33,712 nt of DNA from a virus: positions 1 to 33,712 of the IMG/VR virus record IMGVR_UViG_3300017963_000542; one strand, 5' to 3'. The notes under the pieces are model-generated. The model did no database searches and was not told the DNA's origin. It worked only from the letters and a program-made list of their open reading frames with translations. Position numbers and translations under genes: made by a program. Positions 3,017 through 29,939 of this stretch are shown here, one piece after another. How positions within the stretch are numbered: the stretch's first letter is position 1; each line of letters begins with the position of its first letter.

Positions 3017-3285
3017 GTCAGTACCCGATCCTCCCCGTGATCTATCGTTACCGATTCGTTGAGTCTGCCGAAGCTCGGCATCACCAGGTGGAGCACGCCG
3101 TCTTCGCGCCACGCCTTGTGGATGAAATCAAGAACCGGTGGCTCCAGGTCATACTCGACGATCCCCGCATCTGAGAAGTCCACCGCCACGGACCGGCCGT
3201 TCCATTCGACGATGATCTTGTCTTTTTCCGGCTGCATCCATGAAGCCGGTCTATGATCGTAACAAGGGACCCAATGAATTATCAT
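3007..3285 (-). CDS. Hypothetical protein downstream of fibre, 92 aa
   Basis: The start is ATG 3283-3285, an ATGA overlap with the fibre stop; an in-frame extension lying inside the fibre gene is rejected. The protein begins MIIHWVPCYDHRPASWMQPE and contains alternating beta-type segments (KIIVEWNGRSVAVDFS, LHLVMPSF) with several Trp and Asp residues. It ends DHGEDRVLTWR. Its position directly after a fibre gene suggests a fibre-assembly or fibre-associated protein, but it lacks any recognisable chaperone motif. I do not recognise the family. Confidence 0.7.
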   Translation of the reverse strand: MIIHWVPCYDHRPASWMQPEKDKIIVEWNGRSVAVDFSDAGIVEYDLEPPVLDFIHKAWREDGVLHLVMPSFGRLNESVTIDHGEDRVLTWR

Positions 3286-6200
3286 CTCCACCAACCCCAA
3301 GCTATATATTGCACGCTTCGTGTACTTCCATATGTACCAAGATTGACTGAAAAACCTGTTGTTGATGCATTTATTGTCCCGATAGTAGTAAGTTCCGCCG
3401 CGCTTGAATCTAATGATACTATTGGTCGAATGTTGGATGTAAATGCTGCCGGGTAGACTACGACGTATGCCACGCTTGAAACTGGTACACCTTGTTTCCA
3501 GCAAATCTGGATACCATTTGAAAAGCGGATGTACTCACCGTAAATATTCGCGCCATGTTCTACAATGCCTGCTCCGGCTTCGAGCCAATCGGAAGTTGCA
3601 ATAAGTGGATTTCCGCCGCCGGCATTATCATCGCCAACAGCCACAAATCTCCCGTACGTCGCATCGTAGGTAACACCAGATATGTAGCCTGTCGTGCCGA
3701 ACGGATGCTGTACTGTTGCTTCGCCGTATACTTGGGCCCCCCAGGACAGTCCGCCGTCCACAGATCTTGAGATCTTCCCATCTTCTCCCGTGGCGATCCA
3801 GATACCACCCCCGTACGCAAGGCAAAGAATTAGCGAAGAACCGAATCCGGCATCTATTAGCGCCGACCAGGTGGCGCCGTTGTCAATTGATCGAGACAAT
3901 TTACCGTCTTCGCCGGCAACAATAAATACGCCCCCACCGTAAGCCGCGCAACGGATCATCGTCGCGCCAAACGGATCGCTCACAAGGGAAAAAGAAGCGC
4001 CATCATTGATTGATCGAGCTATTTCGCCAGCTTCCGATACCGCAATCCATGTGCCATTACCATTGGTTGCCAAAGCAAACAATCTGTTGGTAGCTGCGAA
4101 AGGATTTGAAATCAAGGTCCACGATACGCCGTCATTAATCGAGCGCGCAATTTCAGCGTCACCGGTCAAGGTTCCGCCACCACATAACCATACACCGTTG
4201 CCGTAACAAACAGTCATGATGATGCAAGTAGAACTGAATGGCATCGTAATAAGAGAGCCCCACGAAGCACCATCATCCGTAGATCGCGCGACCTTCTCGC
4301 TCCATCCCACCGCTATGAATACGTCGTTACCAAAAGCCACATCTTGTATCGCTGTGGTCCCAAATGGATCTGTTACCGTGGACCAGTTTATACCATGATC
4401 TGTTGAGCGCTCTATCCTTCCTGCATCAGAAACCGCCACAAGAACGTCATTCCCAAAGGCCACGCGAACTATTTGTTCGCCTGAAAATGTGTGATTATTT
4501 CTTCTTCCCCACATCAATCCAAGAGACGAAAGAACGGACTCCCCGGCTTGAAAAAATCCCGACACAAGTGCATCGGCAACATTGCCGCCGCTGCGCATAC
4601 CAGCCCTAAAACGTTCTTCCCAATTTTCACCGTTATGCTCCTTAATAGCCGATTCAACTGGATCGGTCGTTCCCTGTGATCCTGCCGGATCTTTGCCAAG
4701 ATAGGCTCTTACGTCTCCACTGACAGGCGCGGCCCTGTTCTCAGATCCGACCGCCTTAGTGAAAAAGAAGTTCTCCGCTGCCATCTTCACGGCAGTAACC
4801 GCCCCTGCCACGAGCGATGCGGTCACTACCTTATCGGCCTTGACCGTGCCATCGACGTTAATACCCGCGAGCGCCCGGATTGTCTGCTCGAAGCTGTACT
4901 GCCGCCAGTCCCGGCGATAACCGATCAGCGCATATTCGTCCGCAGCTTCATCGTTCGTCCGTGCGTAAAATGGTCCTGTGCCGAGCATCAGCCACGGCTC
5001 TGCGCTCGATTGAAGCGGAGTGCCGCTTCCAGCAGATTCCCCCTCGCTTATGTGTACCGGATTAGTTCTTGATGCTGCTGTCAGATCATGTTCAGCGTGG
5101 AGATTCCACTGACCACCAGACCAATAATAAACCCGCACCGTGCAGGGCTCGACCGCTACTAATTCATACCCGGTGATTTGATGCGGTATCCCATAAGTAT
5201 CGCCACACAAGGACGGAGCCATTCCCTGTTCTGCTGCGTTTCCAGCGCCATCGCCTATACTTGTTGCCTGGATCTCCGTATCTGCTGAGAAATAATAGTC
5301 CCGATCTATGGAAGAACTGCCGTCCCAAGTAGCTCGATATTGATCTCGCCAGATCATGGTCTCTTTGGTAACTGGTATTAGATGAAAACGGTCTCCTCCG
5401 CTGCCCAGCTTTGTGATTACTACTGGTGCGTCGGACCATATCCTCACTATTCTCCCAGCGTCGCTCAGATTCATAGTCTCTTGAGAGGTTACGGTTGCTC
5501 TTGCTGCGTCCACCGATTGCCAGCTACCATCATCGACCTTCCATTCTACATGGGCAGATGAGTACGGCGCGTAAATGTAAATGGTCTCAGGAGATTGGTT
5601 TCTGGTGCATTGATAGATAAACCTTTTTCCTGCAAGGAGAAGATGCCCCAAGGCATGCTGCGCCCCCTGGTAGCACATAGCAACGGCGCCATCTGTCGTT
5701 ATCAGGTCTCCCTGGGATAAAGCGAGTGTTCCCTGATCTCCCTCGACCAAAGGACCGACCACTCGTGCTTCGTTCTTATAGATGTTCGCATTTTCCAAAG
5801 CGACATAGTCTATCGTCCCGCCTCCCATCGCCACCTTCGGCCCGAGCATCGCCATTGCGGCGTTGTCGGATGGTTTTTGCGAGATCGCCGGGTTTGCGAT
5901 GCTTATCCCGCCTACGTGCCAGTCATATATCGCGCCGGCAGTAATATCGTCTGAGGCAATAGTCGACGTCGTGGCTGACGCGCTCGCGCTCCAATCGCTT
6001 TTTGTGCCGTCGACCGTCGATTGCCGGACCCTGTAGTAAAGCGTCCTGCCTGTAGGGTTCTGCGCGGTGCCGGCGTGCGGGATGGGCACATGCAACAGAA
6101 ACGTCGCCGCAGTTTCCGTCCACGCATTGAGTGTATCTTTCCAGTCCGTACCGTCGAACTCGAGTGAGTACCAGGTCGCGTCGTCGTCGGATACCTGTAC

Positions 6201-6458
6201 CTCGTAGTGGTCAAACGTCCGAAGATTGTATTGCGGAACCCACCGCAGCAGGATCGCCTTAAAGGCGCCGGTAATCGACGAAAACGAGATTTGTACGGGC
6301 GTGGTTGTCGTGGCGGTAAGCGTGGCGATCGCGGTTGTCAGGTTTGAAATTGTCGGGCCAAAAAGCGCGCCCGTTACTTCCATGTCTCCCGCATGGAGAT
6401 GGTAGCCGGCGCTGGATGCCCGCTTGTGCAGGTCTCGTCTCAATCTTCTGGTGCTCAT
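3282..6458 (-). CDS. Tail fibre/spike with BNR-type beta-propeller, 1058 aa
   Basis: It starts at ATG 6456-6458, an ATGA overlap with the giant upstream gene. In order: a basic N-terminus; a fibronectin-III-like domain (about 55-165; DHYEVQVSDD, LYYRVRQST); a long beta-rich central part (170-530); a short linker with ADKVVTASLVAGAVTA (541-556); six Asp-box motifs of S-x-D-x-G-x-x-[WF] form (RSTDHGINW 684-692, RSTDDGASW 725-733, RSINDGVSW 772-780, RSINDGASF 815-823, RSIDNGATW 856-864, RSVDGGLSW 898-906) plus a degenerate seventh (IATSDW 953-958); and a C-terminal domain (970-1058) opening with YGEYIRFSNGIQICW, the pattern of gp53-like fibre tips. The Asp boxes space out like blades of a seven-bladed propeller. 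The role is host receptor binding; a sialidase-like activity is not shown. The 3.3-4.5 kb part looks more AT-rich than its neighbours. Confidence 0.85.
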   Translation of the reverse strand: MSTRRLRRDLHKRASSAGYHLHAGDMEVTGALFGPTISNLTTAIATLTATTTTPVQISFSSITGAFKAILLRWVPQYNLRTFDHYEVQVSDDDATWYSLEFDGTDWKDTLNAWTETAATFLLHVPIPHAGTAQNPTGRTLYYRVRQSTVDGTKSDWSASASATTSTIASDDITAGAIYDWHVGGISIANPAISQKPSDNAAMAMLGPKVAMGGGTIDYVALENANIYKNEARVVGPLVEGDQGTLALSQGDLITTDGAVAMCYQGAQHALGHLLLAGKRFIYQCTRNQSPETIYIYAPYSSAHVEWKVDDGSWQSVDAARATVTSQETMNLSDAGRIVRIWSDAPVVITKLGSGGDRFHLIPVTKETMIWRDQYRATWDGSSSIDRDYYFSADTEIQATSIGDGAGNAAEQGMAPSLCGDTYGIPHQITGYELVAVEPCTVRVYYWSGGQWNLHAEHDLTAASRTNPVHISEGESAGSGTPLQSSAEPWLMLGTGPFYARTNDEAADEYALIGYRRDWRQYSFEQTIRALAGINVDGTVKADKVVTASLVAGAVTAVKMAAENFFFTKAVGSENRAAPVSGDVRAYLGKDPAGSQGTTDPVESAIKEHNGENWEERFRAGMRSGGNVADALVSGFFQAGESVLSSLGLMWGRRNNHTFSGEQIVRVAFGNDVLVAVSDAGRIERSTDHGINWSTVTDPFGTTAIQDVAFGNDVFIAVGWSEKVARSTDDGASWGSLITMPFSSTCIIMTVCYGNGVWLCGGGTLTGDAEIARSINDGVSWTLISNPFAATNRLFALATNGNGTWIAVSEAGEIARSINDGASFSLVSDPFGATMIRCAAYGGGVFIVAGEDGKLSRSIDNGATWSALIDAGFGSSLILCLAYGGGIWIATGEDGKISRSVDGGLSWGAQVYGEATVQHPFGTTGYISGVTYDATYGRFVAVGDDNAGGGNPLIATSDWLEAGAGIVEHGANIYGEYIRFSNGIQICWKQGVPVSSVAYVVVYPAAFTSNIRPIVSLDSSAAELTTIGTINASTTGFSVNLGTYGSTRSVQYIAWGWWR
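3579..4481 (-). repeat. Seven-blade Asp-box repeat array within the fibre gene
   Basis: Residues about 660-960 of the fibre consist of seven tandem units of roughly 40-45 residues. Each has a core of the form hydrophobic-AFGNDVFIAV (or AYGGGIWIAT), then a GR/GE/GK turn, then the Asp box S-x-D-x-G-x-x-[WF], then a DPFGTT-like link. Six boxes are canonical and the last is degenerate. The repeats differ enough at DNA level that slippage alone would not keep them. Confidence 0.8.
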
Positions 6459-12400: not shown

Positions 12401-15400
12401 GTTGGCAGGAGCGGCGGAAGCAATCGCGGCCGCCTTCGTCTCGTTGATTTGCTCGTTCCGGTAGAGGGTATAGAGACCATCGGTGGCATATCGGCCAATC
12501 GCAAAGCCCGTTCTTCCCTTGTTTCTTTCAAGAAGTCCTCTGCGGGATGCTTCTTCCTCGGTGATTTCGGAGAATCTGAAATAGTTGGCATAATCCCTTA
12601 CACTCCCCTGACCATCGCGGATATTGCTCTCCGCGTCGAAGGTCATTGCCATCGCAGCGGTGAATCCTTCTGATTCCCGCATGATCTGCGCGGGGATCGT
12701 CTTTTCGCCGAGTCTCCTCGCGAGATCGAGACGGTGCCGGCCGGTTATCACTTCGAGCCGGCCGTCGGTGCGTTCCCACACAACTATCGGCGCGGTACCG
12801 ACACGCTCGTAAGCTTCGCCGCCCAGGGGCTCGACAATCCCGGACTCATCCGCTCCTTCCTTAAAGTTAGGCACTTCCTCGGACAGTTGCAAGTCTTTTA
12901 TCGGGAGCTCGACGATGCCGGCGGCAGATTCCGCTGCAACCGTCGTTGTAGGCACCGGCTCCGGTTCGGCTGCGTTCGGATCGATAGTCGTTTCGACGAT
13001 CTCTTCGGCCACTTCGTCGGCGAGATCTTCGCGGCTTTCGACATACTCCTCGTATTCTCGCCGGATCTGCGCTCCTCGTTCCTGCGGTGTTGCGGGAGCG
13101 GTCTCTTCTCCGGGCACGAATTCCGGTTGCGCTTCCGGGGTAATGAAAAGCGCATCGAAAGCATTTTGTAGCTCATCTGATAGCCGGAAACCGGGAGCTC
13201 CCCCGCGTTGGCGTTGCTCCTGGACAAACGAGACGATCTGCATGAGCAGTCGCTTGAGCTGCTCGAAAAGCGTACGGTGCGCCTCGCTCGGCGCCCATCC
13301 CGTCGCCAGGTAATCCTCGAAACGGTCGGCCAGGAACTCGAGATCTTGCTCCGTCCATTGTGCTCGCCGTTTACCGAGCGCCTGCTCCATGAGTCGAATC
13401 TGATCCTGAGAGAGCGCCAGGCGTTCTACAGCATGAAAAAACTCATGAAGAGCGATGTGAAGGTCGGCCCCTTTCATCGCTGCAAACAGCGCTCGTACGC
13501 GCGTCTTGAATTCCTCGGCATCGACCTCGAGCGGCGCCACTGCTTCGCCTTCAACTGTTTCAAATCGGGTGCCGGCAACTCCACGGCCCGCTGCAAGCTC
13601 TTCTTCCACGCTCGGGCCGCCGACTATCACTTCGCGCCCGATAAACGATTGCAGATACGCATTCGCGCTCATACCGCGCGCCCGGGCAAAGGCTTCGACA
13701 ACACCGGCAAAGGCTCTCGCCTCTTCCGTGTTCAGGTTAAAGCCTTCGGAGATCCGCTGGACGAATACGCTCGCGGTGATCTCGACCTCGGGCTCGGTCG
13801 TTTCTGCAGCGTACCACTGCAACCCCGGCTCAACCCCTTCCGGCGTATCGGCGATGATGCTCTCTTTTATGGCAATTTCATCCTCTTCGGTCGGATTCCA
13901 TTCAATCTCCGCTTCAGGATGTCTCGCTGCGAGCTCGAGGAGCATTTCGCGCCGGAGATCCTGCTCGACCTCGTTGACAACCTCCTGAATATAGATGTCG
14001 CCAGCAGTATGCTCATACAAGATATACCCATAACGAATTCGATTGTTCGGATCGCCGACTTTGAAAATCGCATTTCTCCCTTCCTTGGTCGCCGTGAGCT
14101 CTTGTTCGATCACGTACAGCCGGCCTTCTTTCGTCCGATACTCACCCTCCGGCCGAGGAGCTGGTTCTGCGCCCTCCGCTGGTTGCGGGCGTGCCTGTGT
14201 CTCCGCTGCGGTGGTCGGCCGTTCCGGGATGGCGCCTCCGGGATGCTCCTTCGCCCATACTTTCCCGAGATAATCACGCCAACCGCGCATGTCCGCGCCG
14301 ATGCCACGAATGAACAAATCTTCCCGGATCGCCTGGTTGACAAACTGCGCTCTATCGGGGGTTGATTTCGCGAGCTCCCTAATACGGTTCAACCTGGATA
14401 CATCTGCCCTGATTCCTGCCGGCGCGCCGGCGACGCCGAAGATCACGCCAGCCGAGAAACCGCCAGAGAATGCCTCGGTCACACGTGAAACAAACTCCGC
14501 ACTCGTAACAGGCTCTATCGCTGTCTGGATACCGCGATCCTTTGCAATTTCCATTGCCAGCTGTTCGGAAAAAATCGAAGTAATCTCCTGGAGCGGCTCC
14601 TCGATCCCCTCCGATAGTCCCGCCGCGACGGCGTTGGAAGCAATCCGCGTCGCAATCGTGCCGAGGGTGCCGGTCATCATGAGCTTATTGGCAACCATCG
14701 TGCCGGCGCTCTTCAACGCCGGCGTCACGCCGGGTAGTTTCACGCCGAGGAGCATCTGCCCCACCGACTCGATAGCGCCCTGGACGATGCCGGAAATATC
14801 GGCGATCGGTGTGGCGATCTCGTGTGGGACTCCCTGGTCGCGGAGATCCAGGTATTGTAGGCCGCGCATAACGTCCATGAGCTCCTGCGTGCTCCCGGTA
14901 ACATATCCGATTTGCGCCATCGTAACGGCGATTGCGGGAATCGAGAGCCCGGCGGTGAAAGGAGCTGCCGCAAGTCCGATCAACGCTCCCGCAGCGGCAC
15001 CGGCCGCAGCACCGAGACCGCCGGAAAAAAACGATTTCGCCATCAGCGGCGCCGATTCCGTGGCGATCAGTAGTGCGTTTTTCACCCAGGGACGAGGGAT
15101 CTCGTCGAGCGGTTCCACTTGCCCGAGGAGATCCGCGAGCTGCTGCTCAATCTCGGGATTCGTTCCGCCGGCTTCCATGAGCCGGGCTGCCAGGTGCCCG
15201 CGTTTGACGTTTATAACGCCGTTGTTCCATGCCTTTTTGAGGCTCTTCAGGAACACGTCGGGCGGCTTGATTTCGCCGAACCAGTATTGAGAAAGGGCCG
15301 AAAGGTCGCGGTATGCAACTTTGGGATCGATGCCAACCGCCTTAGCCGCATATTCGGCGGCATTCATATAGGCAAGGGCGCCGGCAGGGTCATCTTCTTT

Positions 15401-15622
15401 TGCGAGATTTTTCGCCAAATTGTAAAAAATAGCTCGGTTTCTTTTTTCTTCCTGTATTTTGCGTTTTGTTTGCTCGTAGGCTGTCAAGGGAGTTAAGCCC
15501 AGTTTTTCTTGATATTTATCGACTGGGCTTGATTGCGTCAGGATTTCATGAGCTTCTTCTGCATTCTCGGTTTGTCTATCGTAGGGCGCAATTAGCTCGT
15601 TAATGTCCTGGAGATCACTCAC
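6455..15622 (-). CDS. Giant polyvalent internal virion/ejection protein, 3055 aa
   Basis: A single open frame starts at GTG 15620-15622 (GTGA overlap with the upstream stop, AAGGA eight bases away). Its place after internal proteins A-C and before the fibre is that of T7 gp16-type ejected proteins. In order: a helical N-terminus; a hydrophobic Gly/Ala-rich segment (about 195-245); a zincin motif HEFFH at 726-730 with helical ERxxx and EFLADRFEDYL downstream; a ParB-like domain (about 903-1100) with GRHRLDLARRLG at 961-972; conserved LPP-type blocks, including FIEEIQSDWHQEG (1460-1472), VHSLPINNQMR (1782-1792) and GYIFPDGSMLDMS (1831-1843); a Glu-rich stretch (2000-2150); a Lys/Arg-rich coil (2220-2330); and a C-terminus resembling LPD38 (about 2650-3050) with a hydrophobic helix near 2927-2944. 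It matches the polyvalent-protein concept: several effector domains delivered with the DNA. No lytic transglycosylase motif was recognised. Confidence 0.85.
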   Translation of the reverse strand: MSDLQDINELIAPYDRQTENAEEAHEILTQSSPVDKYQEKLGLTPLTAYEQTKRKIQEEKRNRAIFYNLAKNLAKEDDPAGALAYMNAAEYAAKAVGIDPKVAYRDLSALSQYWFGEIKPPDVFLKSLKKAWNNGVINVKRGHLAARLMEAGGTNPEIEQQLADLLGQVEPLDEIPRPWVKNALLIATESAPLMAKSFFSGGLGAAAGAAAGALIGLAAAPFTAGLSIPAIAVTMAQIGYVTGSTQELMDVMRGLQYLDLRDQGVPHEIATPIADISGIVQGAIESVGQMLLGVKLPGVTPALKSAGTMVANKLMMTGTLGTIATRIASNAVAAGLSEGIEEPLQEITSIFSEQLAMEIAKDRGIQTAIEPVTSAEFVSRVTEAFSGGFSAGVIFGVAGAPAGIRADVSRLNRIRELAKSTPDRAQFVNQAIREDLFIRGIGADMRGWRDYLGKVWAKEHPGGAIPERPTTAAETQARPQPAEGAEPAPRPEGEYRTKEGRLYVIEQELTATKEGRNAIFKVGDPNNRIRYGYILYEHTAGDIYIQEVVNEVEQDLRREMLLELAARHPEAEIEWNPTEEDEIAIKESIIADTPEGVEPGLQWYAAETTEPEVEITASVFVQRISEGFNLNTEEARAFAGVVEAFARARGMSANAYLQSFIGREVIVGGPSVEEELAAGRGVAGTRFETVEGEAVAPLEVDAEEFKTRVRALFAAMKGADLHIALHEFFHAVERLALSQDQIRLMEQALGKRRAQWTEQDLEFLADRFEDYLATGWAPSEAHRTLFEQLKRLLMQIVSFVQEQRQRGGAPGFRLSDELQNAFDALFITPEAQPEFVPGEETAPATPQERGAQIRREYEEYVESREDLADEVAEEIVETTIDPNAAEPEPVPTTTVAAESAAGIVELPIKDLQLSEEVPNFKEGADESGIVEPLGGEAYERVGTAPIVVWERTDGRLEVITGRHRLDLARRLGEKTIPAQIMRESEGFTAAMAMTFDAESNIRDGQGSVRDYANYFRFSEITEEEASRRGLLERNKGRTGFAIGRYATDGLYTLYRNEQINETKAAAIASAAPANESVQNEGIRQAKELNADELVNYLNIIQDMHPRGKAEQTDLFGQDDPFMLEAARLAREAVKKQAELQNEYRALKGALRLSRGEQQKILSKYGYQPGDAVAVQSRVDELTFEIEAWKDWTTDAEKHAELRERLEKDTLLHPADAFLFHSKSPEFWTLKSLEIITEKMQGPMQASAIKKMLQNNGVKADEMKWIGLDDFLEKERKITPEQMLEHIQQNNIQLTEVVLGKSDIAIPQELADLRVEALEAEHGFTRLLNDAVSLLQRNQVDSHVAYMDLFRYAKGEEDLPAKYLAIAPDYDWEALPKAQKTLTATRSARDIYEADFRGGQDYAETRHEGWVLSGGQNYAEILFILPSLQETYQTGHWEQENVVAHSRINERLGAGNENILFIEEIQSDWHQEGRKEGYQGDFSEFRKEVIAAAKKNQFDLEAVGAAFDHLAEEPLDRPERPTQAEWILLNEAVAGSGINLNRFHDIADHGIPDAPWRKTWHGLVFRRMLHLAVEKGYDRLAWTTGQQQADRYNLAQYIDEIRYRRVTPEESAFVSWTAGGERVTDTTYVIRGISGGRQVFEQNYNNEELDGFVGRDVAELIRQDYGGDDTDAEGVPGRILYTTDLSVGGEGMKQFYDSILVKYANKFAKKWGVKVEPWNVETDETPIEGTPTKVIPAQWPGPGYFTIELEGSGTTYGAFETREQAEAMLAKIKETGLQQPETVHSLPINNQMRKELGTEKSLYLFHQAEDQKRIIDAAKKYLGVTDNPNETGYIFPDGSMLDMSEGEKNYRVLDHGDALKPRRLGLKSKADDYFGKIFEFQKRSQAVRYEAKMGYASAVVRPTSTQIRKMVQGWIDNDATNIYLSISASDGRDQGFTQMFRPTVSSVKAFFDRAPRMLKHLSGEWAGQFIYGTEVDEEIWNEYVRRAKGYLSAEDFQAEIEEADRRAAGPAAQTMPAEEAARFYQAVWDEAHVEEEVEQEDLFDIPSPEMRDADKYDYDEKREAAQDIEDEELATKMERGEANDADLETPPEDLETTRDEAERAGEEERQARGELSEEGKRMVELGDEIDETIEAQPPAVEEPDETRQEEIKRYEEKLADLYKRFEEALMSDLSTAEALVSDMVWTRAIIMPSQIEAAEDVKTAAGEQLEKAVGLGRKLQKALDSEKWKKERAKIAERHKASRAKIYAKKREQFKRYKEQLRAKQKEQRAKKKYREAKKKIIGDIMRPPGRGVAYKGYAEEIRNIQRGLDPVKRQKKTLWRREQTRKFLEQNPEAAAYMDPDFLDKVYSVSLPDMTLEQLEKIKETIDALRKLGRLKRSLELTQERRLRNHAIALAQSTVLRGKPPEKPVGGVKPTRLLYKILLLLLKPDRVAKWFDGVFEGGEPGIYTEWLQDRPNEAWSAMKKMIRKRTQPVLKKMAELKLTADPLDVRRVTKGFTFIGERLDIEGFKYTNGKQPTIQDAMYWYIGMRNEKTAPALVHGNNIPEEILLKGIMMLTPEQRAFADAISADFVENFPRLRDAFIDIFNMDLPGEDFYVPMRRLMLSYETREEEIAMELTGRAGVRKQFIARNPTYARIDIADEHQKPIRTDLMSLWIEGVKIQEGFIHQDQLVKQLHAIFESDEVRLAVQQKYGPDFNKWLRQYINDLAQADAYAAMSGIEKFSRAVRTNAAVGWLAFNLSPHLKQLTGPLNYLADTGPFYLASAAAQFAAGKGKSALKGKFLNNTLVDFVDSKTELLQSRLISQEFADLQRVDKNLYMQFVKKIGHVGMHGLELIDKVTVYIGWKAVYDKEMAKHGIEAKAIQAADKATIRTQPSHRVQDMAQIYREGEILKWFMMFTSELSAIWNRMVFDVPLALKRHELMHALGDMVSFSIVGMAIAIAAGALQGDEPEEKKKKMIVGAFSQYIDAIPFFGNDIMNIVSNRQFQSGGVKIFPAIDYIRYVPKQFAQGKIETALGNLAEGAAFATGLPTSGPIKAVRMMKSKDLRDLLGWPREGR

Positions 15623-18507: not shown

Positions 18508-18957
18508 TCATTCCTCCGTCCATGCGTACATGTCGTTGTCACGGCCCCTCGGGCCGTATTTACGAAGCCGCCCCTCAAACTTGAAACCTAAATGCTGTAC
18601 AAAGCGTATCGCCTCATCATGATCGGAGATTACGTGCGCCTGAATGCGCTTGAGGTCATGCCTGTGACGGACAAAAGCAAGAGCTTCGCGGCATACGTGT
18701 AAAAGGCGAATATGGTTACGAACATTCTGGCTACAAATCAACCATGCTTCCGCTGTGCCAGACCAGAACAGCGTTAGGCCAAAACAGGCGACAATTTCCC
18801 CCGCGTCATTTGTGACTGTTCCTGATGGGCCGGCGGTCTTGTGGTTCGTGGCTATATAATCGACTGGCAAATCTTCTCGATCCTGTTTTTCGGACTCAGT
18901 TACCTCGATTTTCAGATAGTCGTCCGGCTCATATTGTCGTATGTGTAGTTTTCTCAT
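18508..18957 (-). CDS. GNAT-fold protein, internal virion protein A position, 149 aa
   Basis: The start is ATG 18955-18957 (MRKLHIRQYEPDDY), an ATGA overlap with tail-tube B; an in-frame extension upstream is rejected. Residues 1-15 look like the first strand of a GNAT acetyltransferase (LHIRQYEPDDYLKI). Residues 51-65 (DAGEIVACFGLTLFW) are the central strands, and 83-130 hold helix-strand-helix ending DHDEAIRFVQHLGFKFEGRLRKYG, here split as DHDEAIRFVQHLGF and KFEGRLRKYG. The canonical acetyl-CoA loop Q/RxxGxG/A is not evident; VRNHIRLLHVCREAL occupies that place. Internal virion protein A genes of many podoviruses are annotated as N-acetyltransferases of this size. Whether it binds acetyl-CoA or keeps only the fold is open. 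Confidence 0.75.
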   Translation of the reverse strand: MRKLHIRQYEPDDYLKIEVTESEKQDREDLPVDYIATNHKTAGPSGTVTNDAGEIVACFGLTLFWSGTAEAWLICSQNVRNHIRLLHVCREALAFVRHRHDLKRIQAHVISDHDEAIRFVQHLGFKFEGRLRKYGPRGRDNDMYAWTEE

Positions 18958-20900
18958 GTCTCCGCCACCTCCGGCACTAATGCCAGCACGCAGGATCGAT
19001 ATGGCTGATCCTGCACGATCCATACCCATGAATCTTTCGACCATTCGCCCTGGAACGGAATATACACGTCGCCCGAGTAGGCGCTGTTCCAGGTCACTTC
19101 GTCTGAGCGCCTGGCGGTCTCGAGCCAGCTCGCGTCGTTCTTAAAGCCCGCTTTGAACGGCATCGAATTGAGTACGCGCGCGGTGACGCCCACCACGTTG
19201 TCGCGTTTCATCTGCGGCCTGTTCAAGCGCATGGTCTGAAGCTCGCAGGTAATCGCCTTGCCGATAAAAACGTTGTCGCCAACATCGCAGCCGGTGGGAT
19301 AGGTCAGCGATCCGCCGGAGACCGCGGCGGTATGGACTTCGGAATCGGTCACATTCCAGATCGTCACCGTCTGGCCGTTGAACCGCTCGAGTCCGGTCTC
19401 CGTTGCGCCGGCGATAGAAGCGACTTCCACATACGAATCGAGGGGAACCTTCGTGAGATCCCACATGGGATCGAGCATTTCGATGACACGGCCGTTGGCG
19501 CGGTTGACCGAGAGATACACGTCGTAGTCAGTGGTACCGGGAACGACGGCCACACTCTCGATAGTCCCGCCGTCGGTGTCGAAGTGATACCACGCGCGCG
19601 CGCCGTTCGGTTTGTCGTGCACGAGGACCGCGATCTCGCCATTCGTTACGCAGAAGATCTCCGGTTGCGGCATGGTCCGGCTGTCGAGCTGCGTGATCCC
19701 GTTCTCGAGCATCTGATCGGCGTGATACGAAAGATCGGTGCTTTGCAGCGCTGCGCTTTCCGCCAGGTAGGCATATTCGTAGAGCCTTGCTTTTGAGTTG
19801 TTCCCCACCGCCATGATCGGCGCATCGTTGAATATGATCGGCTGCAGCCGGGCAGATCCAAGACCGCTTCGGTGTAGCGCCTCGATATCGAGCGCATTAA
19901 CGCTCTTTGGTACCACCCACTCATTCTCGCTCGAGAAAACGATGAGCGCCTCGGCTGCGGCGTAGCCGTAAATCGAGTCTTCCTTTTTCGAGGCGACCTG
20001 AAAGAAAAAGGCGCTTCCTTCGCCGGTAATGACGCTCTTCTTCGTCACCGTTTCAGTCTCCGGGACGTTCGGATTCGCCCATAAACTATCGTCTTTCACT
20101 CCGGTATAGGTATAGGTAATAACGCTGAAATACGAGAAAGCGTTGTACCAGTAGGGAAGCGATGTCCAGGTCCATTGCGGCCGGTTCACGGTACCGCCGT
20201 AGATCATCCGCTGGTTCATGTACCCGATGGCGCTCGGATAATCGTCGGCCTGGCTGAAGGGTTTCGTCCATTCCCATATCCAGTGCACCGTGCCGTCGGT
20301 GATATCGTCCCCTTCGGTCGTCGGTCCGCCCGAACCGGCGGATGTGCCGGCGGTGATGCAGCTATAGCATTTCGTCGGCGTACCGTTGGTCACCACGTCA
20401 CCGACTTCATAAGCAGTGCTTCCCTGCCAGGCATCGATCGATGTCTCGATCTCGATGGTGATATCGGCAAGGGTGAATGTCGTTCCGCCGCTCCAGGTAA
20501 TCGTCGCGATCGGATGTTGATCGTGAACCAGGTACATCACGTTGCCGACCTGCTGGAATTGGATATAGAAAAGCTGCGCGGCGGTGTATGGCGGCGATCC
20601 TGTGATCGTCGCGTATACCGAGCCGCTCTTCCACACTCGTATGTAGGCATTAGTGAACTCTAATACAAAAGGATTAGACGCATTGACAGCGAACGGTATC
20701 AGGCGCGCCTTCGCGGTGTTATACGTTGTCGCTTTATACGATAGCCCGGGCCTGGTGATAACGCCGCCCTGGGGGAAGGGCACCCAATTCTTGACGGTCT
20801 GCCCGCCTCTCCAGTAGATGGGGAGGTTGAATCTGCCGCCGAACTTCCCGCTGAGCTCGCCGGCGGAGAAATCGGTAATGACTTCCGCTTTGAGCTGCAC
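18954..20900 (-). CDS. Tail-tube protein B / nozzle (T7 gp12-like), 648 aa
   Basis: It starts at GTG 20898-20900, directly after the tail-tube A stop, with GGGAGG eight bases upstream. The N-terminus (DFSAGELSGKFGGRFNLPIYW, i.e. FSAGELSGKFGGR then FNLPIYW) with NWVPFPQGGVITRPG and LIPFAVNASNPFVLEFTNAY is the signature of podovirus tail nozzle or stabilisation proteins. A later beta-propeller-like body contains SVNALDIEALHRSGLGSARL and many beta strands. Between residues 158 and 210 it carries an inserted module, WQGSTAYEVGDVVTN to TDGTVHWIWEW, like two found in tail-tube A. It forms the lower tail tube through which DNA leaves. No truncation is visible. Confidence 0.85.
   Translation of the reverse strand: MQLKAEVITDFSAGELSGKFGGRFNLPIYWRGGQTVKNWVPFPQGGVITRPGLSYKATTYNTAKARLIPFAVNASNPFVLEFTNAYIRVWKSGSVYATITGSPPYTAAQLFYIQFQQVGNVMYLVHDQHPIATITWSGGTTFTLADITIEIETSIDAWQGSTAYEVGDVVTNGTPTKCYSCITAGTSAGSGGPTTEGDDITDGTVHWIWEWTKPFSQADDYPSAIGYMNQRMIYGGTVNRPQWTWTSLPYWYNAFSYFSVITYTYTGVKDDSLWANPNVPETETVTKKSVITGEGSAFFFQVASKKEDSIYGYAAAEALIVFSSENEWVVPKSVNALDIEALHRSGLGSARLQPIIFNDAPIMAVGNNSKARLYEYAYLAESAALQSTDLSYHADQMLENGITQLDSRTMPQPEIFCVTNGEIAVLVHDKPNGARAWYHFDTDGGTIESVAVVPGTTDYDVYLSVNRANGRVIEMLDPMWDLTKVPLDSYVEVASIAGATETGLERFNGQTVTIWNVTDSEVHTAAVSGGSLTYPTGCDVGDNVFIGKAITCELQTMRLNRPQMKRDNVVGVTARVLNSMPFKAGFKNDASWLETARRSDEVTWNSAYSGDVYIPFQGEWSKDSWVWIVQDQPYRSCVLALVPEVAET
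20271..20429 (-). repeat. Carbohydrate-binding-like module, copy in tail-tube B
   Basis: Residues about 158-210 of tail-tube B: W-x-x-STAY-x-VGD-V-x-N, Y-x-C-ITAGTSAGSGGPT, ITDGTVHW. The pattern W...Y..GD.V...Y.C...G...GP....W resembles small aromatic-rich carbohydrate-binding modules (CBM5/12, chitin-binding type 3). It is very similar to two copies in the neighbouring tail-tube A gene. Confidence 0.65.
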
Positions 20901-21842
20901 CTACACGTCCTCCCACCTGGTCGGCTCCGGCGGCGCCTCTTTCCCTTCACTCATCGCGATGCCTTCGGCGAGATTCTTCTGATCTACCCATTTCTGATAG
21001 AGCAGCACCGCGAGCTGTCGGTCTTTGGTTACGTTGAAACAAATCGCCTGGGCGATATGCAGAGCAACTGTCTGCCGGCAGAGCTCGTCCCACCGCCCAG
21101 GGTCCTTCTCGTCGATCACGTACTTGAGATCCGCATCGTCGCGATCGCAGTAGATCGTGATCCCTTCATAGGCGTATTGCTCGCCCTGGTCGGTTTCGTA
21201 GACTTCGGCGTCCTTCGGAATTTTGATAATCCGCAGACAATCCGGCGGCTTGATGTAGCGATAGGCATAGACCGTATGGTTCTGCCGGGGCGGAGCGCCG
21301 TAGTACGCCCAATGTACTGTATTATCGGTAATATCCTGGTTTGCCCCGGTGGGGCCTCCTGATGCAGCCGAGGTGCCCGCCGTAATGCACTTGTAGATTT
21401 TAAACGTGTCGTTCGATACGAGATCGCCCACCGCGTAGGCGGTGGACGCTTGCCAGGACCAGTTGTTGAGCGCAGTCGACGCCTCGACGTATGCCCACAC
21501 GCAGGTGTTGTCCGTAATCCCGGTTCCGGTACCTGTTGGGCCTCCGGACGAATCGGAGATTCCGGCCGTGGTGCATTTGTACGTTTTTCCCGAGTCGTTG
21601 GTGACACGATCACCCACGTAGTAGGCCGTGCTCGCCTGCCAGGCGCACGCCTGCTCGTCCATCTGTTTCATCGGCGCCCGGTGCGTAGTCCGTGGCCACT
21701 CAATCATACGGAGCACTTGCGGTCGGCTGATCGCGTATTGCGATGTCGCTTTGCGTTGTGCGTAATCCGAAATATTGTCCATTGTGGCCGGCGCCGAGCC
21801 GATCTCCTGCAGGGCCATATTGACGATATCGATATCGTCCAT
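20901..21842 (-). CDS. Tail-tube protein A / adaptor (T7 gp11-like), 313 aa
   Basis: It starts at ATG 21840-21842 with GGGGAG six bases upstream. The first 62 residues (MDDIDIVNMALQEIG, then SQYAISRPQVLRMIEWPRTTHRA) and the last 125 (RYIKPPDCLRIIKIP, DEKDPGRWDELCRQTVALHIA, with LLYQKWVDQKNLAEGIA) make up the usual helical and beta parts of the gatekeeper/adaptor protein. That protein joins the portal to the tail nozzle. Between them two tandem modules of about 52 residues (about 68-119 and 130-181) have been inserted, making the protein longer than a standard gp11 (about 190-200 aa). The modules are carbohydrate-binding-like. If folded out from the adaptor ring, they would decorate the neck of the virion. 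Confidence 0.85.
   Translation of the reverse strand: MDDIDIVNMALQEIGSAPATMDNISDYAQRKATSQYAISRPQVLRMIEWPRTTHRAPMKQMDEQACAWQASTAYYVGDRVTNDSGKTYKCTTAGISDSSGGPTGTGTGITDNTCVWAYVEASTALNNWSWQASTAYAVGDLVSNDTFKIYKCITAGTSAASGGPTGANQDITDNTVHWAYYGAPPRQNHTVYAYRYIKPPDCLRIIKIPKDAEVYETDQGEQYAYEGITIYCDRDDADLKYVIDEKDPGRWDELCRQTVALHIAQAICFNVTKDRQLAVLLYQKWVDQKNLAEGIAMSEGKEAPPEPTRWEDV
21300..21455 (-). repeat. Carbohydrate-binding-like module 2 in tail-tube A
   Basis: Residues about 130-181: WQASTAYAVGDLVSN, YKCITAGTSAASGGPTG, ITDNTVHWAYY. It shares the string WQASTAY with module 1, and shares CITAGTSA, SGGPT and TVHW with the tail-tube B copy. Confidence 0.7.
21486..21641 (-). repeat. Carbohydrate-binding-like module 1 in tail-tube A
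   Basis: Residues about 68-119: WQASTAYYVGDRVTN, YKCTTAGISDSSGGPTG, ITDNTCVWAYV. It is tandem with module 2 after a linker of about 10 residues (EASTALNN). Confidence 0.7.
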
Positions 21843-22709: not shown

Positions 22710-23720
22710 TTAGGTTACGACCGCTTCTGTGTTCAGAAGCGCGTCGCAGCGTTTTATCGGGATCCCCATGAACGAAGTCTTCGGTTTCCCTTCGACCTCG
22801 TCGTACTTGAGAGCCAAAACGGTCTTGGCAATGGCCTGCAGTTGCAGCCACTGGAGAACCAGGTTGTTCGCGTAGAACACCGCGTTCCCCATCTCGAGCG
22901 CCGGAATCCGGTAATACGCTTTTGTCATTGCAGTGATGAGATCGACGGTGCTCGCGTTCAAGGCGCTGGTGTCGATGTTGCAGATCCGTACGATGTAGCG
23001 CCAATCCCGCTGAGTGAGACCGAGATCCCATTTGTAATGTGAGCGATAACCCTGGTAGTGGCCGGTCGGCGTTTGCGCGTCGTCCAGGGTCACTTCTCCA
23101 AGGTCCTTATGGTTGAAACCACCCGATTCCGATCCTTTCGGATACAGGCCGTGCAGCGTGTTTTCGCCCCACACGACGAGCCAGACAGACGTTTGATCGG
23201 CGCCGGATGCGCTCGTATAGGCGTTGATGACGTTGTACGCCGTCACGGTCATGTCGGTCGCGCTCGCAGGGAGCGAAGGATACCGGGGCATGAGGCCGGT
23301 GAACCGCTCGGGGTTCGTCTGCTCATTCCCGTAGAATAGGGTGGTAGCCATTTCTTGATTCATCGCCTCAAGAAACGCCTGGTCTTCCGAGAGCCGCCAG
23401 GCGGCGGTGTTGCCGTTTAGATCGGCAAGCGCCTTGTCAACCTCAGCGTATGCTTCGAGCATACCCGTGGTGTCCGTGATTTGTGCTGTCGTTGATTTCG
23501 ACGGCTGGACGCCGTAGTTCAGGATACGCCAGGTGACGGTTGGCAGCCCGGTACGGATCGTGGTTTGATGCCCGGTACCGTTGTTACACTGTACGACAAG
23601 CATATCATCCAGGATCCTGTTGGTTCGGTTACAGATCTCTATGATCGCAGAGATCTTGTGGTCAGGGCCAAGCCTCGAGGCGATGTCGAGGTAGCTGACC
23701 GCTGTACCTAAAGTGCCCAA
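22710..23720 (-). CDS. Major capsid protein (BPP-1 Bbp17-like), 336 aa
   Basis: HK97-fold coat protein of the BPP-1/P22-like podovirus type. Recognisable stretches: SYLDIASRLGPDHKISAIIE near the N-terminus, GHQTTIRTGLPTVTWRILN (50-68), QPSKSTTAQITDTTGMLEAY (72-91), LNGNTAAWRLSEDQAFLEAM, FYGNEQTNPERFTGLMPRY, VWLVVWGENTLHGLYPKGS, and LTQRDWRYIVRICNID. All are near-diagnostic for this family as I recall it. The start is TTG 23718-23720; no ATG or GTG lies nearby, and AAGGAG sits seven bases upstream. It follows the scaffold gene by 17 bases. The protein forms the shell lattice; its length is usual for the family. Confidence 0.93.
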   Translation of the reverse strand: MGTLGTAVSYLDIASRLGPDHKISAIIEICNRTNRILDDMLVVQCNNGTGHQTTIRTGLPTVTWRILNYGVQPSKSTTAQITDTTGMLEAYAEVDKALADLNGNTAAWRLSEDQAFLEAMNQEMATTLFYGNEQTNPERFTGLMPRYPSLPASATDMTVTAYNVINAYTSASGADQTSVWLVVWGENTLHGLYPKGSESGGFNHKDLGEVTLDDAQTPTGHYQGYRSHYKWDLGLTQRDWRYIVRICNIDTSALNASTVDLITAMTKAYYRIPALEMGNAVFYANNLVLQWLQLQAIAKTVLALKYDEVEGKPKTSFMGIPIKRCDALLNTEAVVT

Positions 23721-24877: not shown

Positions 24878-24943
24878 TCACGCCGAATAGGCCGACGGCC
24901 ACGGCCAGGCGTCGATTACAACGGGAATCTTGCGGTATCTCAT
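24878..24943 (-). CDS. Very short ORF, 21 aa, resembling start of a PGDYG-type protein
   Basis: It starts at ATG 24941-24943 in an ATGA overlap with the portal stop and has a perfect AGGAGG six bases upstream, so it is very likely translated. It reads MRYRKIPVVIDAWPWPSAYS and a final Ala, then TGA. The YRKxPVVI(D/E)A opening is that of a common short phage protein (YRKKPVVIEA, the PGDYG-type family) that normally continues for 80 residues or more. Here it stops after 21. The next 24 bases are open in another frame to a TAA touching the next gene's ATG. It may be a truncated remnant kept as a coupling leader. Confidence 0.6.
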   Translation of the reverse strand: MRYRKIPVVIDAWPWPSAYSA

Positions 24944-26592
24944 TCGCGTCCTCCTGCAATTTGCGCGAGAGCGCTATCGGGATTCACCGGCTGGTTGAGC
25001 TTGTCGAAGTTGCCGGCGACGTTTTTCTGCGTTTCGAGGCTCATAGCGAGCTGCTGTTGCTCGGCCTGCTGCTGCTGCCTCATCTGGCGGATCTTCCGGA
25101 TCTCCGGGAGCTCGCGGATCGCTTTTTGCGGCGCGCCCTGGGCGTCGAGGCCCGCCCGCATGAGCTCGTCGCCGTCGGCAATATCGAGGGACTCCGGGAA
25201 GATCGTGCCGATATCGGCCGCGAGCGCGGTGGCTGCGATAACGCCTTGGCTCCTGTGATACCGCTTCTGCGCTTCCGCCAGCGGCCCCATGAATTCGATC
25301 TTGATAGTGCGGTTGCCGCCGGCATACAGCGCCAACGGCGCCGGCGGGAGCTTTGCGTTACGGTCACAGATGTCGTACTCCCTGTTAATGAGCGGGATTA
25401 GCGTCTCGGAATTGAGCCGGCCAATGGTGGCGCCCAGGACCGCAGCCTGCTCGCCCTTGATCTCTCGGACCTCCGTCGCCGTCCGGTTGGTGCCCTCGAG
25501 CATCTCCATGAGCACGAAGATCCGGGAGCGGAAGATCGAACGGATCTGGTCCCGGATCTCCTGCTCCTCTTCCTTCGCGACCTGGTAGCGGGCACCGAGA
25601 TCGATCGGCGAAATAATCTTCTGCGGGTTGGTGTAGTAGTTATAGCCGCGCGGTACGATCCGCTCTTTGCCCTGCATGTCCTGCGGTACGTTAAGGGGCG
25701 GCTCGACGGCGAGCTGGCCGGCCATGAGCGACGTCTTGCCCATCTGATTAAGCCGCATGACGTCGTTGATCGCATCGGCGGCCGGCGAACGGCCGTAGCT
25801 CTCGTCGGTGTTCTTCCGCCAGCGCCACACGAGGAACGGGAACGAATCGTAGCCCCCTTCGTCGATCACGACCTGGTTCTTCATGTCCCAATACTCGCTC
25901 GCCCAGGGCTTGTTGATGCCGTCCGCCCGGGTGTAGTCGCGGTCGCTTCGGGGATACACGCCGTGCACAATGCGCGTGGTGCCGTAGGGAGAATTCTTGA
26001 TATCCTCGAGGAGACTCGGGTGTAGCTTGTCCGCGCCCCAGGTCTGCATGATCTTGCGGTTGGTGAGCTTGTAATCGCGGAAGAGGGTATCGACCAGGCC
26101 GGTTCGCGCCTCGGCGATCCGGTATTCCTTGATGTGAAAAGTCCTGAAAAGGGTTCGCTGTTCGGCAACGTCGTCCTCGACGAGCATCGCCGCGGTGCCG
26201 ATAGACGCAGCGTCGAGAAAGAACTCGCTGACCGCCTCGTAGAAGTTACTGCGGGCGAACTCGGCGTAGAGCACGTCCTCCACTTCTTCGAGGTAGTCCA
26301 TCACGCCGGGGAGCTTGTTCTGCTTCGGATCCTGCATCTGTAGCCGGAACCACTTGTTCTTCGGGCTTACCAGGTAGCCGACCATGCCGTCGACGAGGAG
26401 CTGCAGCGAATCCAGCGCGGAGTCGTCGTAGATCTTCGTTGCCGGCCGCTTGCCTTCCTGGCCTTCCATGTCCCAGAAACTGCGCCGCTGCAGCACGTAA
26501 TCGGTGATGTCCTGCCAGAGTGGCTTCCACCACTGATGGATTTTGGTTAAGGCGCCGAGGTAGGCATTCAGGTCGAAATATTCCAGCGCCAT
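24940..26592 (-). CDS. Portal / head-to-tail connecting protein, 550 aa
   Basis: Family of bacteriophage head-to-tail connecting proteins (PF12236 type, T7 gp8-like). It starts at ATG 26590-26592 in a TAATG overlap. Signature stretches: WWKPLWQDITDYVLQRRSFW (21-40), SALDSLQLLVDGMVGYLVSP, RFARS-like EFARSNFYEAVSEFFLDAAS, GTAAMLVEDDV, RTFHIKEYRIAEARTGLVDT, SFPFLVWRWRKNTDESYGRS, PADAIND-like AADAINDVMRLNQMGKTSLM, EGTNRTATEVREIKGEQAAV, and a Gln-rich C-terminal helix. It forms the dodecameric ring through which DNA is packaged and ejected. Next to it are the scaffold-side genes and the adaptor further on. Length is in the normal range for the family. Confidence 0.93.
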   Translation of the reverse strand: MALEYFDLNAYLGALTKIHQWWKPLWQDITDYVLQRRSFWDMEGQEGKRPATKIYDDSALDSLQLLVDGMVGYLVSPKNKWFRLQMQDPKQNKLPGVMDYLEEVEDVLYAEFARSNFYEAVSEFFLDAASIGTAAMLVEDDVAEQRTLFRTFHIKEYRIAEARTGLVDTLFRDYKLTNRKIMQTWGADKLHPSLLEDIKNSPYGTTRIVHGVYPRSDRDYTRADGINKPWASEYWDMKNQVVIDEGGYDSFPFLVWRWRKNTDESYGRSPAADAINDVMRLNQMGKTSLMAGQLAVEPPLNVPQDMQGKERIVPRGYNYYTNPQKIISPIDLGARYQVAKEEEQEIRDQIRSIFRSRIFVLMEMLEGTNRTATEVREIKGEQAAVLGATIGRLNSETLIPLINREYDICDRNAKLPPAPLALYAGGNRTIKIEFMGPLAEAQKRYHRSQGVIAATALAADIGTIFPESLDIADGDELMRAGLDAQGAPQKAIRELPEIRKIRQMRQQQQAEQQQLAMSLETQKNVAGNFDKLNQPVNPDSALAQIAGGRE

Positions 26593-27659: not shown

Positions 27660-29939
27660 TTATCTTGTTTCCACTCCATACCGGAGCGGGTCGTACTCTT
27701 TTTCTTGCGATGGCTCGCCGATCCCGAGCGGATCGATCTCGTTACCCTGGGGAAAGGTGGCGCCGATCTCGTCGTCGAGCACACGTGCCAAGCAGTCCAG
27801 CATGTCGTCGTGTGCCGTGAACGGGTGGGCTTTGTATTCGTCTTCAACAAATATCCTCGTGAGATCGACAGTTGTCTCGTCGTACTGGATGTACGGCGTA
27901 CTCGCCGGCAGATAGATCCGGTGCTGGTGAAAAATCGGAATGAGCCGATTGATCCGTTCGACCTTCGCCAGCGGGCCGCCAAGAGGCTGAATATCAAAGC
28001 GGTAGTTGTCCCGCTCCATGCGGTCTTCGTAATGCTCGATATCCGAGTCCTTGCCGTATTTCTCGTAGCCGACGCCGACGGGCTGGTACTGCTGGTGCCA
28101 CTTGAACAACACGTTGCTGCGCTCGACGAGGGATAGACGGTCGCGGATCCAGTTGACGATGTAGTAGTTGCGGTCGGCGCCCAGGCCGATGCAGATGAAC
28201 ACCGTGTAGTCCGAGTCTTGTTTCTTCGAGCTCGCCGGATCGCAGAGGATATACAGGTTGAGCTTGCGGTACATCTTCGCCCGCCAGTACCGGAGCCACT
28301 CCTCTTTGAAGCGGATGAGGCTGTCCTGCTGCGGGGCCATGAAAAGCTGACAGTTCTTTGACGCAAAACCGTTGGCAATATAGTTGCCCGTCTCCGTCTG
28401 GATCGACCACACGCGGCGACTTCCCAGAGGTTTGATTGACGTGACCTTCTCGAGCTTTTTGTCTTTATCACACCTTATTCTGGTCTGAAACATTGTGTTA
28501 ACGATCGCCGGCGCTTTTGCCGGACGATACCACAGCAGCAATTTGTGGCGCATTAGCCGCCCGCCGAGAAGCGTGAAGATTGTCGATCCCTTATGTCCTA
28601 TGCGTGGTGGACGATAATATTCGCGCCAGTCAAGGCCGAGACGGAGCATTGTTTCCCGCAGCTTTCTTGTTACGCCCGGATTGTGTTCTTCTGACTGCGT
28701 GATAGAGATTTGACCGTTTTCGTGAACCGAGCCTTCTCCGTCGATCATGCCAGACAACCAAGCTGTTGCGGCAAAGTCAGGGCATTTATCGGCGAACGAG
28801 ATCCGAACCAAGCCCTTCATGCACGCGTGACCTCCATCCCCAAGCACGGAATACTTACGCTTGGCGTCTCGCCTCCCGGTCCACCACTTGTGATCGGGAG
28901 TGCACTCAACGAAAGCGCCGGTTTCGAGGGAATAGCGATTGGCGAGAGCTATGCGCGCTCGGGTAGCAAGTACTCTTGTTTTGCGCAATCTCGCTTTTCC
29001 GTTCACGGCAAGATCAATACCAACAACAGTGTCTCCCGGTTTGATGTGTTCGACATTCTTATACGACCAATCGCTCATGAGGATTTTCGTGCCGTCACAA
29101 AGACAGCTCGCGATGTACGGGCCGTAGTCGCGGATTTTCTGTGCCAGTTCCTCCCGGGTGAGTAGGTAAGGCGTGCCGGTCTCTGTTCCGTCGACGGTAG
29201 CCGGGTAGATCCGGGGTTTGAAAGTGCCGGCCTTGATACAGCTCGCCGCGAGGTCGTTGTAATGCCACCTAGTGCAGAGAAACCGGCGATTGCCGCCACG
29301 CGTTCCCAGGTTAAGCGATTCCCGGAAGCGGTCGTAGGTAAGTTTGATCGCGTCGGGATTACGACAGGACTCGGCCTCGAAAGCGTCGTCGTAGTTGAGG
29401 TCAGTAAAATGCGGCCCAACAGGGAGGCTGTCGATCATGCCGAATGCGGAAAATGTCGGTTCCTTCGGATTGCCTTTACGCCGGACGATGAGTCCGTCCT
29501 TCTCGGACCACTTCGGTGCGTATCGCTGCGGATCCTCCCAAAACACTTCCGGCGCGATCTTCCACAACACGCTATTGTTCTCGAGCTCGGTCTTGATTTG
29601 TCGCAGGAACGGGAGTGCGACCTTTGAGGTCCGGCCGATGATGGCGATTGTGCGTTCAGGGTTGTGCCAGGCCTTCCAGATGTTGTGCGCAAAGGTGATG
29701 ATCGTCGACTTGTAGTGCTCTCTCGCCCAGGCGTCGAGGTATCCTTCCGGACGGGCCTGGACCTCGCGGCAGCGGGCATAGACGAAATCGTTGTTCGCGT
29801 CCTCGCGGTGAAGGACGAAGACCAGGAAGTAGAACAGGTCGTTGTACGCCAAGGCGCGGACCATTTCGAGGCGGTGGCCGTCCCGGGTCGCCTGCTGCAA
29901 GAGCATCCGGTACTTAGCGAGCGTCTGTATCCGTGTCAT
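27660..29939 (-). CDS. terL: Terminase large subunit interrupted by an intein, 759 aa precursor
   Basis: It starts at ATG 29937-29939 (AGGAAG upstream), overlapping the previous gene by 26 bases. The N-terminal ATPase has a deviant Walker A, WAREHYKST (71-79), an RTSKVALPFL segment, a Walker B-like stretch HFTDLNYDDAFEAE (177-190) and FLCTRWHYNDLAA as coupling motif. The C-terminal RNase H-like nuclease has YILCDPASSKKQDSDYTVF (563-581), with Asp567, VGYEKYG (623-629) and HDDMLDCLARV (710-720). Between the two, after YGPYIAS, an intein of residues 279-529 is inserted. Removal leaves a 508-aa terminase, normal for the family, with the joined sequence YIAS-CQLFMAPQ. The mature enzyme pumps and cuts phage DNA at the portal. 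Confidence 0.93.
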   Translation of the reverse strand: MTRIQTLAKYRMLLQQATRDGHRLEMVRALAYNDLFYFLVFVLHREDANNDFVYARCREVQARPEGYLDAWAREHYKSTIITFAHNIWKAWHNPERTIAIIGRTSKVALPFLRQIKTELENNSVLWKIAPEVFWEDPQRYAPKWSEKDGLIVRRKGNPKEPTFSAFGMIDSLPVGPHFTDLNYDDAFEAESCRNPDAIKLTYDRFRESLNLGTRGGNRRFLCTRWHYNDLAASCIKAGTFKPRIYPATVDGTETGTPYLLTREELAQKIRDYGPYIASCLCDGTKILMSDWSYKNVEHIKPGDTVVGIDLAVNGKARLRKTRVLATRARIALANRYSLETGAFVECTPDHKWWTGRRDAKRKYSVLGDGGHACMKGLVRISFADKCPDFAATAWLSGMIDGEGSVHENGQISITQSEEHNPGVTRKLRETMLRLGLDWREYYRPPRIGHKGSTIFTLLGGRLMRHKLLLWYRPAKAPAIVNTMFQTRIRCDKDKKLEKVTSIKPLGSRRVWSIQTETGNYIANGFASKNCQLFMAPQQDSLIRFKEEWLRYWRAKMYRKLNLYILCDPASSKKQDSDYTVFICIGLGADRNYYIVNWIRDRLSLVERSNVLFKWHQQYQPVGVGYEKYGKDSDIEHYEDRMERDNYRFDIQPLGGPLAKVERINRLIPIFHQHRIYLPASTPYIQYDETTVDLTRIFVEDEYKAHPFTAHDDMLDCLARVLDDEIGATFPQGNEIDPLGIGEPSQEKEYDPLRYGVETR
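28353..29105 (-). other. Intein with LAGLIDADG-type endonuclease inside terL, 251 aa
   Basis: N-terminal splicing block CLCDGTKILMSDW (279-291), with Cys279 as nucleophile, then VEHIKPGDTVVGID. Block B is VECTPDHKWW (344-353) with Thr347 and His350. The endonuclease motif WLSGMIDGEGSV (394-405) matches LAGLIDADG; only one such motif is visible. The C-terminal blocks are RRVWSIQTETGNYIANG (508-524) and FASKN (525-529), followed by Cys530 of the C-extein. All catalytic positions (Cys1, TxxH, terminal Asn, +1 Cys) are present, but the residue before the terminal Asn is Lys, not the usual His. The intein can excise itself, and the endonuclease can promote invasion of intein-free terL alleles. Confidence 0.9.

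Follow-up and report, generated by a model that had tools for sequence, protein, structure and literature searches.

The window, as the DNA analyzed here is called, spans 33,712 bases and makes up one complete IMG/VR virus record. Its structural genes lie on the minus strand in the order portal, scaffold-like, major capsid protein, adaptor, nozzle, GNAT-like, large internal proteins and fibre, the same order as gp4-gp7-gp11-gp12-GNAT in epsilon15. Based on its GP7 capsid protein, Head-tail_con portal and this shared gene order, we assign the phage by sequence to the epsilon15/BPP-1/HTVC010P-type podophages, and it is not T7-like. The features needed below are these:

24940..26592, minus strand: portal, for context (Pfam Head-tail_con, 4.5e-128)
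22710..23720, minus strand: major capsid protein, for context (Pfam GP7, 1.1e-129)
20901..21842, minus strand: adaptor (tail tubular A / epsilon15 gp11-type), 313 aa, two modules (phrog_394, 8ck1_E, AF2/Foldseek)
21489..21641, minus strand: module A1, adaptor residues 68-118 (module HMM i-E 1.7e-30, an in-sample score from a profile built from our own modules; Pfam CBM_5_12 on the adaptor)
21303..21455, minus strand: module A2, adaptor residues 130-180 (1.3e-5 with Pfam CBM_5_12 when the module is searched by itself)
18954..20900, minus strand: nozzle (tail tubular B / epsilon15 gp12-type), 648 aa, one module (phrog_376, 8ck1_A, AF2/Foldseek)
20274..20429, minus strand: module N, nozzle residues 158-209, between strands 142-146 and 224-228 (AF2 model, alignments)
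3282..6458, minus strand: probable tail fibre/spike, for context (phrog_2712, 1.6e-6)

The adaptor was identified by its matches to phrog_394 (5e-26) and, in a profile comparison, to the solved Carin-1 connector 8ck1_E (7e-29), and the nozzle by its matches to phrog_376 (2.6e-88) and the solved Carin-1 nozzle 8ck1_A (3.5e-20). AlphaFold2 models of the two proteins (pLDDT 92.1 and 89.4) were compared with known structures using Foldseek, which matched the adaptor to 8ck1_E, LME-1, P-SCSP1u and T7 gp11, and the nozzle to 8ck1_A (8e-37) and T7 gp12. Thus, the two proteins have the T7 gp11 and gp12 folds, although the phage is not T7-like; with these folds, encoded downstream of the GP7 capsid gene in the epsilon15 order, they belong to the epsilon15-type adaptors and nozzles. 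Two other minus-strand genes of the window were also noted. The large terminase (27660-29939) appears to bear an intein at residues ~279 to 528, in a frame that is open throughout, with weak matches to LAGLIDADG_3 (3e-4) and intein-splicing (0.007) profiles. A single protein of 3055 residues (6455-15622), with a weak ParB_N match (0.04), occupies the ejection-protein position and is probably a multi-domain internal virion protein.

An earlier note on this DNA had described three copies of a module between 20271 and 21641, two in the adaptor and one in the nozzle, and the coordinates, identities and shuffled alignments obtained here agree with it. The modules are 51-52 residues long and share 59-69% amino-acid identity pairwise (69% for A2 and N). 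Local alignment of A2 scored 181 with N, where the best of 1000 shuffles scored 66, and 184 with A1, where the shuffled maximum was 52. In the AlphaFold2 models of both proteins, each module was confidently predicted as a separate set of short strands, and the adaptor modules sit between strand 53-57 and strand 194-197. One region of the adaptor model superposed on the tailspike of phage Pam1 (7eea_A; 55 columns, 1.4 Å, 31% identity by Foldseek), and a profile of 44 modules covered 7eea residues 495-545 end to end (1.2e-7).

The same note had called the modules carbohydrate-binding-like, and comparison with the CBM5/12 profile did reveal kinship, limited to the N-terminal half. Pfam CBM_5_12 matched the adaptor at 4.7e-10 (39.8 bits, above the curated gathering cut-off of 26.2) and the nozzle weakly (E 0.2, 12.2 bits, below the cut-off), and at E values up to 1 it matched 38 of the 44 modules. 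However, only profile positions 1-31 of 44 were covered (2-30 for A2), which falls short of a full-length match, and the alignment of the 44-module profile with the chitin-binding domain of ChiA1 (1ed7; 6.7e-7) ended at 1ed7 residue 35. With CBM family 5/12 (Pfam PF02839), the modules share the N-terminal pattern W..xTAY..G..V...Y.C, the core Tyr and a C-terminal Trp, but they are slightly longer (~52 aa), and their C-terminal half reads GGPTG...ITDGTVxW. Chitin binding by CBM5 depends on an exposed Tyr/Trp-Trp pair together with a third aromatic residue (PMC8449059). This exposed pair is absent from the window modules, whose loops read SSGGPT, ASGGPT and GSGGPT, and its replacement by Gly-Gly-Pro makes a chitinase-like binding mode unlikely. 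Trp, Tyr or Phe of any kind was found in the binding-pair loop of 29 of the 124 modules that could be parsed, a figure that is an overcount, as some parsed loops reach the conserved end Trp. As judged from sequence, then, resemblance of the family to CBM5/12 is confined to the N-terminal half. The missing aromatic pair weakens the specific claim that the modules bind host glycans, although they may have a different ligand face.

Homologues of the adaptor and nozzle were gathered via the capsid protein, portal, adaptor and nozzle in the epsilon15-type podophage set. No module was found in 115 of 145 adaptors, one in 11 and two in 19, and of 127 nozzles, 113 had none and 14 had one; these sets include near-duplicates and partial genes, and the counts are not population frequencies, because the profile was seeded from these modules and some of the loci had been retrieved with module patterns. 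When only phages with distinct adaptors and with both genes long enough were considered (68 phages), both proteins were module-free in 53, and the remainder carried at least two adaptor modules plus a nozzle module (6 phages), one adaptor module only (5), two adaptor modules only (1) or a nozzle module only (3). All adaptor insertions examined fell in one common loop, between a 'W....KR..L' strand and 'Y.Y..P.D', where a beta domain opens whose counterpart in T7 gp11, a beta-strand domain lying outside the helix bundle, is the fibre dock (PMC6702177). The chain of the solved adaptor 8ck1_E is contiguous across this site, and the nearest outgroup, L205, has no module in either its adaptor or its nozzle. 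In the nozzle, the slot lies directly before a conserved 'YPG' and is filled, depending on the phage, by a short linker, by this module or by another domain. Epsilon15 gp12 (E 7e-4) and relatives such as L077 (3.5e-6) have a divergent module-like segment there, and in L014, L028 and L021 it holds a stretch that looks FN3-like by eye, for which Pfam gave no confirmation. The earlier reading of the modules as insertions therefore stands, and the alternative that they belong to the core fold is excluded, because most homologues are module-free, the adaptor insertions share a loop and 8ck1_E runs uninterrupted through it.

Several further loci bear on how the modules are arranged. In L127 and L130 the adaptor gene is present twice, each gene with a single module, in addition to a nozzle module, and L127 also encodes a Bbp16-like decoration protein with two further modules. 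Two adjacent adaptor-like genes, with or without modules, were seen in L127 (4207-5729), L130 (4291-5777), L202, L203, L211 and L231. Three candidates were set aside. The 'chitin-binding type-3' label of the Vibrio phage PS25B.1 nozzle was not reproduced, as Pfam reported E1_FCCH and the module profile gave no match, and the 'CBM' of Peru-2 proved to be an unrelated beta-helix region. A break at the nozzle module in L003, whose DNA is 97% identical, was rejected as an insertion event: the switch (L003 3884-4619) falls inside the nozzle gene, and since the downstream DNA encodes, on the opposite strand, what by eye is a bacterial succinate-CoA-ligase-like fragment, the contig is likely a chimeric assembly.

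To the question of origin, the earlier note had offered duplication across genes or repeated capture. The 69% protein identity of A2 and N might suggest that, within the lineage of this phage, the module was recently duplicated from one gene to the other or spread by gene conversion, and an ancient sister relation of these two groups is not rejected (AU p 0.31). However, the copies agreed at only 6/19, 4/18 and 3/20 fourfold-degenerate sites, no better than the 0.36 expected by chance, and the A1, A2 and N modules from the window's clade separated by position into three groups in a 34-module tree (support 82/45, 94/90 and 97/97, respectively). A single clade of the three window copies was rejected (AU p 0.009), as was a clade of window A1 and A2 (p 0.006), and a window A2 and N clade came near rejection (p 0.07). 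A recent event of this kind is accordingly very improbable. With fourfold sites saturated and each copy grouping with the modules that occupy the corresponding position in other phages, the sequences indicate that the copies are old and were inherited within the window's clade, and that recent triplication is rejected. Deeper groupings that join, for example, every A2 to every N were not rejected (AU p 0.24-0.31), and on the ~54 columns available the three lines may derive either from ancient copying between genes or from separate captures. Of the earlier proposal, repeated insertion across phages is well supported. On a tree of nozzle cores, at least 3 changes are needed to account for which phages have adaptor modules and at least 4 for nozzle modules, and the same module is borne by T7-type nozzles, a separate family, in L163 and L185. 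A Fisher test for joint gain of modules by adaptor and nozzle gave p 0.0005 across the 68 phages, but the tree offers no more than 2-4 independent pairs, and such a correlation is not claimed.

A tblastn search of named phages with the module alone found no match, and the module family was therefore built from IMG/VR loci. When 69 non-redundant other host proteins were scanned individually, 19 matched a baseplate wedge family, 11 a tail sheath family and 5 a head decoration family; two were T7-type nozzles (PF25675, 3e-256), and a cement protein, a Bbp16 and an SU10-type adaptor were each found once. The remaining hosts include fibres, pectate-lyase proteins and GDSL lipases; baseplate J is among the hosts, and bacterial genomes contain module-bearing loci as well. 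In the tail sheath proteins (phrog_205 / DUF3383) of L195 (4087-5589), L143 (4072-5622) and others, the module lies near residues 140-200. A phage apiosidase-like protein (L004 633-2420; Pfam 3e-18) also carries it, and some module-bearing proteins in alignment A8 match multihaem cytochrome and multicopper-oxidase families, indicating that the module exists outside phage structural proteins too. The insertions are patchy and occur in virion proteins of unrelated phages, as decoration domains do, and the range of hosts, from baseplate, sheath, head decoration and cement to nozzle and fibre, forms a surface-decoration pattern. The likeliest reading is thus that many phages share the module as a decoration of their surface. 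Whether it constitutes a general virion-decorating family of tailed phages, captured independently on the adaptor, epsilon15-type and T7-type nozzles, sheath, baseplate, cement and spike, and carrying a ligand face unlike that of chitin-binding CBMs, is a broader proposition that we consider evenly balanced. A limited open-access literature search found no paper describing the module as such a family.

We propose that the three segments are copies of an independently folding, CBM5/12-like plug-in decoration on the neck, perhaps acting as a weak multivalent adhesin, a reading to which we give about an even chance. Two copies lie in the loop at which the fibre-dock domain of the adaptor opens and one lies in a loop of the nozzle, and if the T7-like stoichiometry of 12 adaptors and 6 nozzles holds, ~30 modules per virion would surround the neck, close to where the fibres attach. 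Their position at the fibre dock and the sheath- and cement-type hosts elsewhere suggest that the modules would be displayed outward on the virion of this phage, in keeping with the earlier note, in which they would ring the neck if surface-exposed. Glycan binding is putative; it is suggested by kinship to CBM5/12 and to the tailspike domain, and by the report that the adaptor and nozzle proteins TTPA and TTPB of phage OWB bind the host receptor Vp0980 (PMC7241545). The most likely function would be to supplement the fibres by attaching weakly, through many modules at once, to polysaccharide on cell surfaces or in the environment.

Other roles were weighed against this one. The modules might extend the fibre dock, contacting the N-terminus of the fibre or spike or bracing the adaptor-nozzle joint, and so serve assembly or stability rather than host binding. 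The location of the adaptor insertion fits this idea, as do the missing sugar-binding aromatics and the view of the phage R4C authors, who favour local stability over adsorption as the role of a neck-located Ig-like domain on the adaptor of that phage (PMC10276861). In addition, the window fibre's N-terminus, which is 54% identical in the L197 record, was found in only two of nine related records searched, both with two adaptor modules and one nozzle module, but these same records are the closest kin and the correlation is confounded. The module also occurs on proteins of the tail sheath, on baseplate J and on cement, which have no common fibre partner, and assembly must proceed without it in the many module-free relatives. 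We regard a fibre-dock role as possible, though somewhat unlikely.

Patchy presence, very diverse host proteins and the lack of a recognizable canonical binding face would also suit passive or near-neutral mobile cargo, tolerated in exposed loops and maintained by drift or by a slight general benefit such as shielding. This appears rather doubtful, since all three positions are kept across phages whose nozzles are only ~56-60% identical, the module Trp, Tyr, Pro and Asp are retained among them, and third positions are saturated while protein identity stands at 59-69%, which together suggest purifying selection. True CBM5/12 activity, in which the modules would bind chitin or another GlcNAc polymer and anchor the phage to particles of chitin or to a host polymer resembling it, draws on the ChiA1 profile match and the breadth of CBM_5_12 matches, but the ChiA1 match stops at the binding-Trp region, where Gly-Gly-Pro replaces the aromatic pair, and we consider such activity improbable.

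The adaptor and nozzle are usually viewed as DNA plumbing. A clade with the same display module on both proteins, together with relatives that lack it, provides natural pairs with and without the module for studying the role of the neck in finding or holding a host, and these pairs bear equally on the role of the many non-Ig decoration domains of phages. If the module is a general decoration, it would be a non-Ig counterpart of the Ig-like domains, with a ligand face unlike that of chitin CBMs.

Among known systems, epsilon15 gp12 and the Carin-1 nozzle (8ck1_A) have a module-like segment at the same nozzle site, with Carin-1 aligning through the slot, but in contrast to the window adaptor, the adaptors of both phages are without a module. 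Ig-like decoration domains (Big2, I-set and FN3; Fraser et al., 2006, as cited in PMC10276861) are likewise small, beta-stranded and patchily distributed in structural proteins of unrelated phages, and in R4C they reach an adaptor, as the modules do here. However, they have a different fold, and the R4C adaptor domain is N-terminal, whereas the modules are CBM5/12-like and internal, placed in a loop. The receptor-binding domain of the Pam1 tailspike is proposed to recognize host extracellular polysaccharide (PMC9382816). A smaller domain within it (7eea residues 495-545) resembles the modules in both sequence and fold and is also carried on a phage virion; it differs in location, being part of a tailspike, while the window modules are in the adaptor and nozzle.
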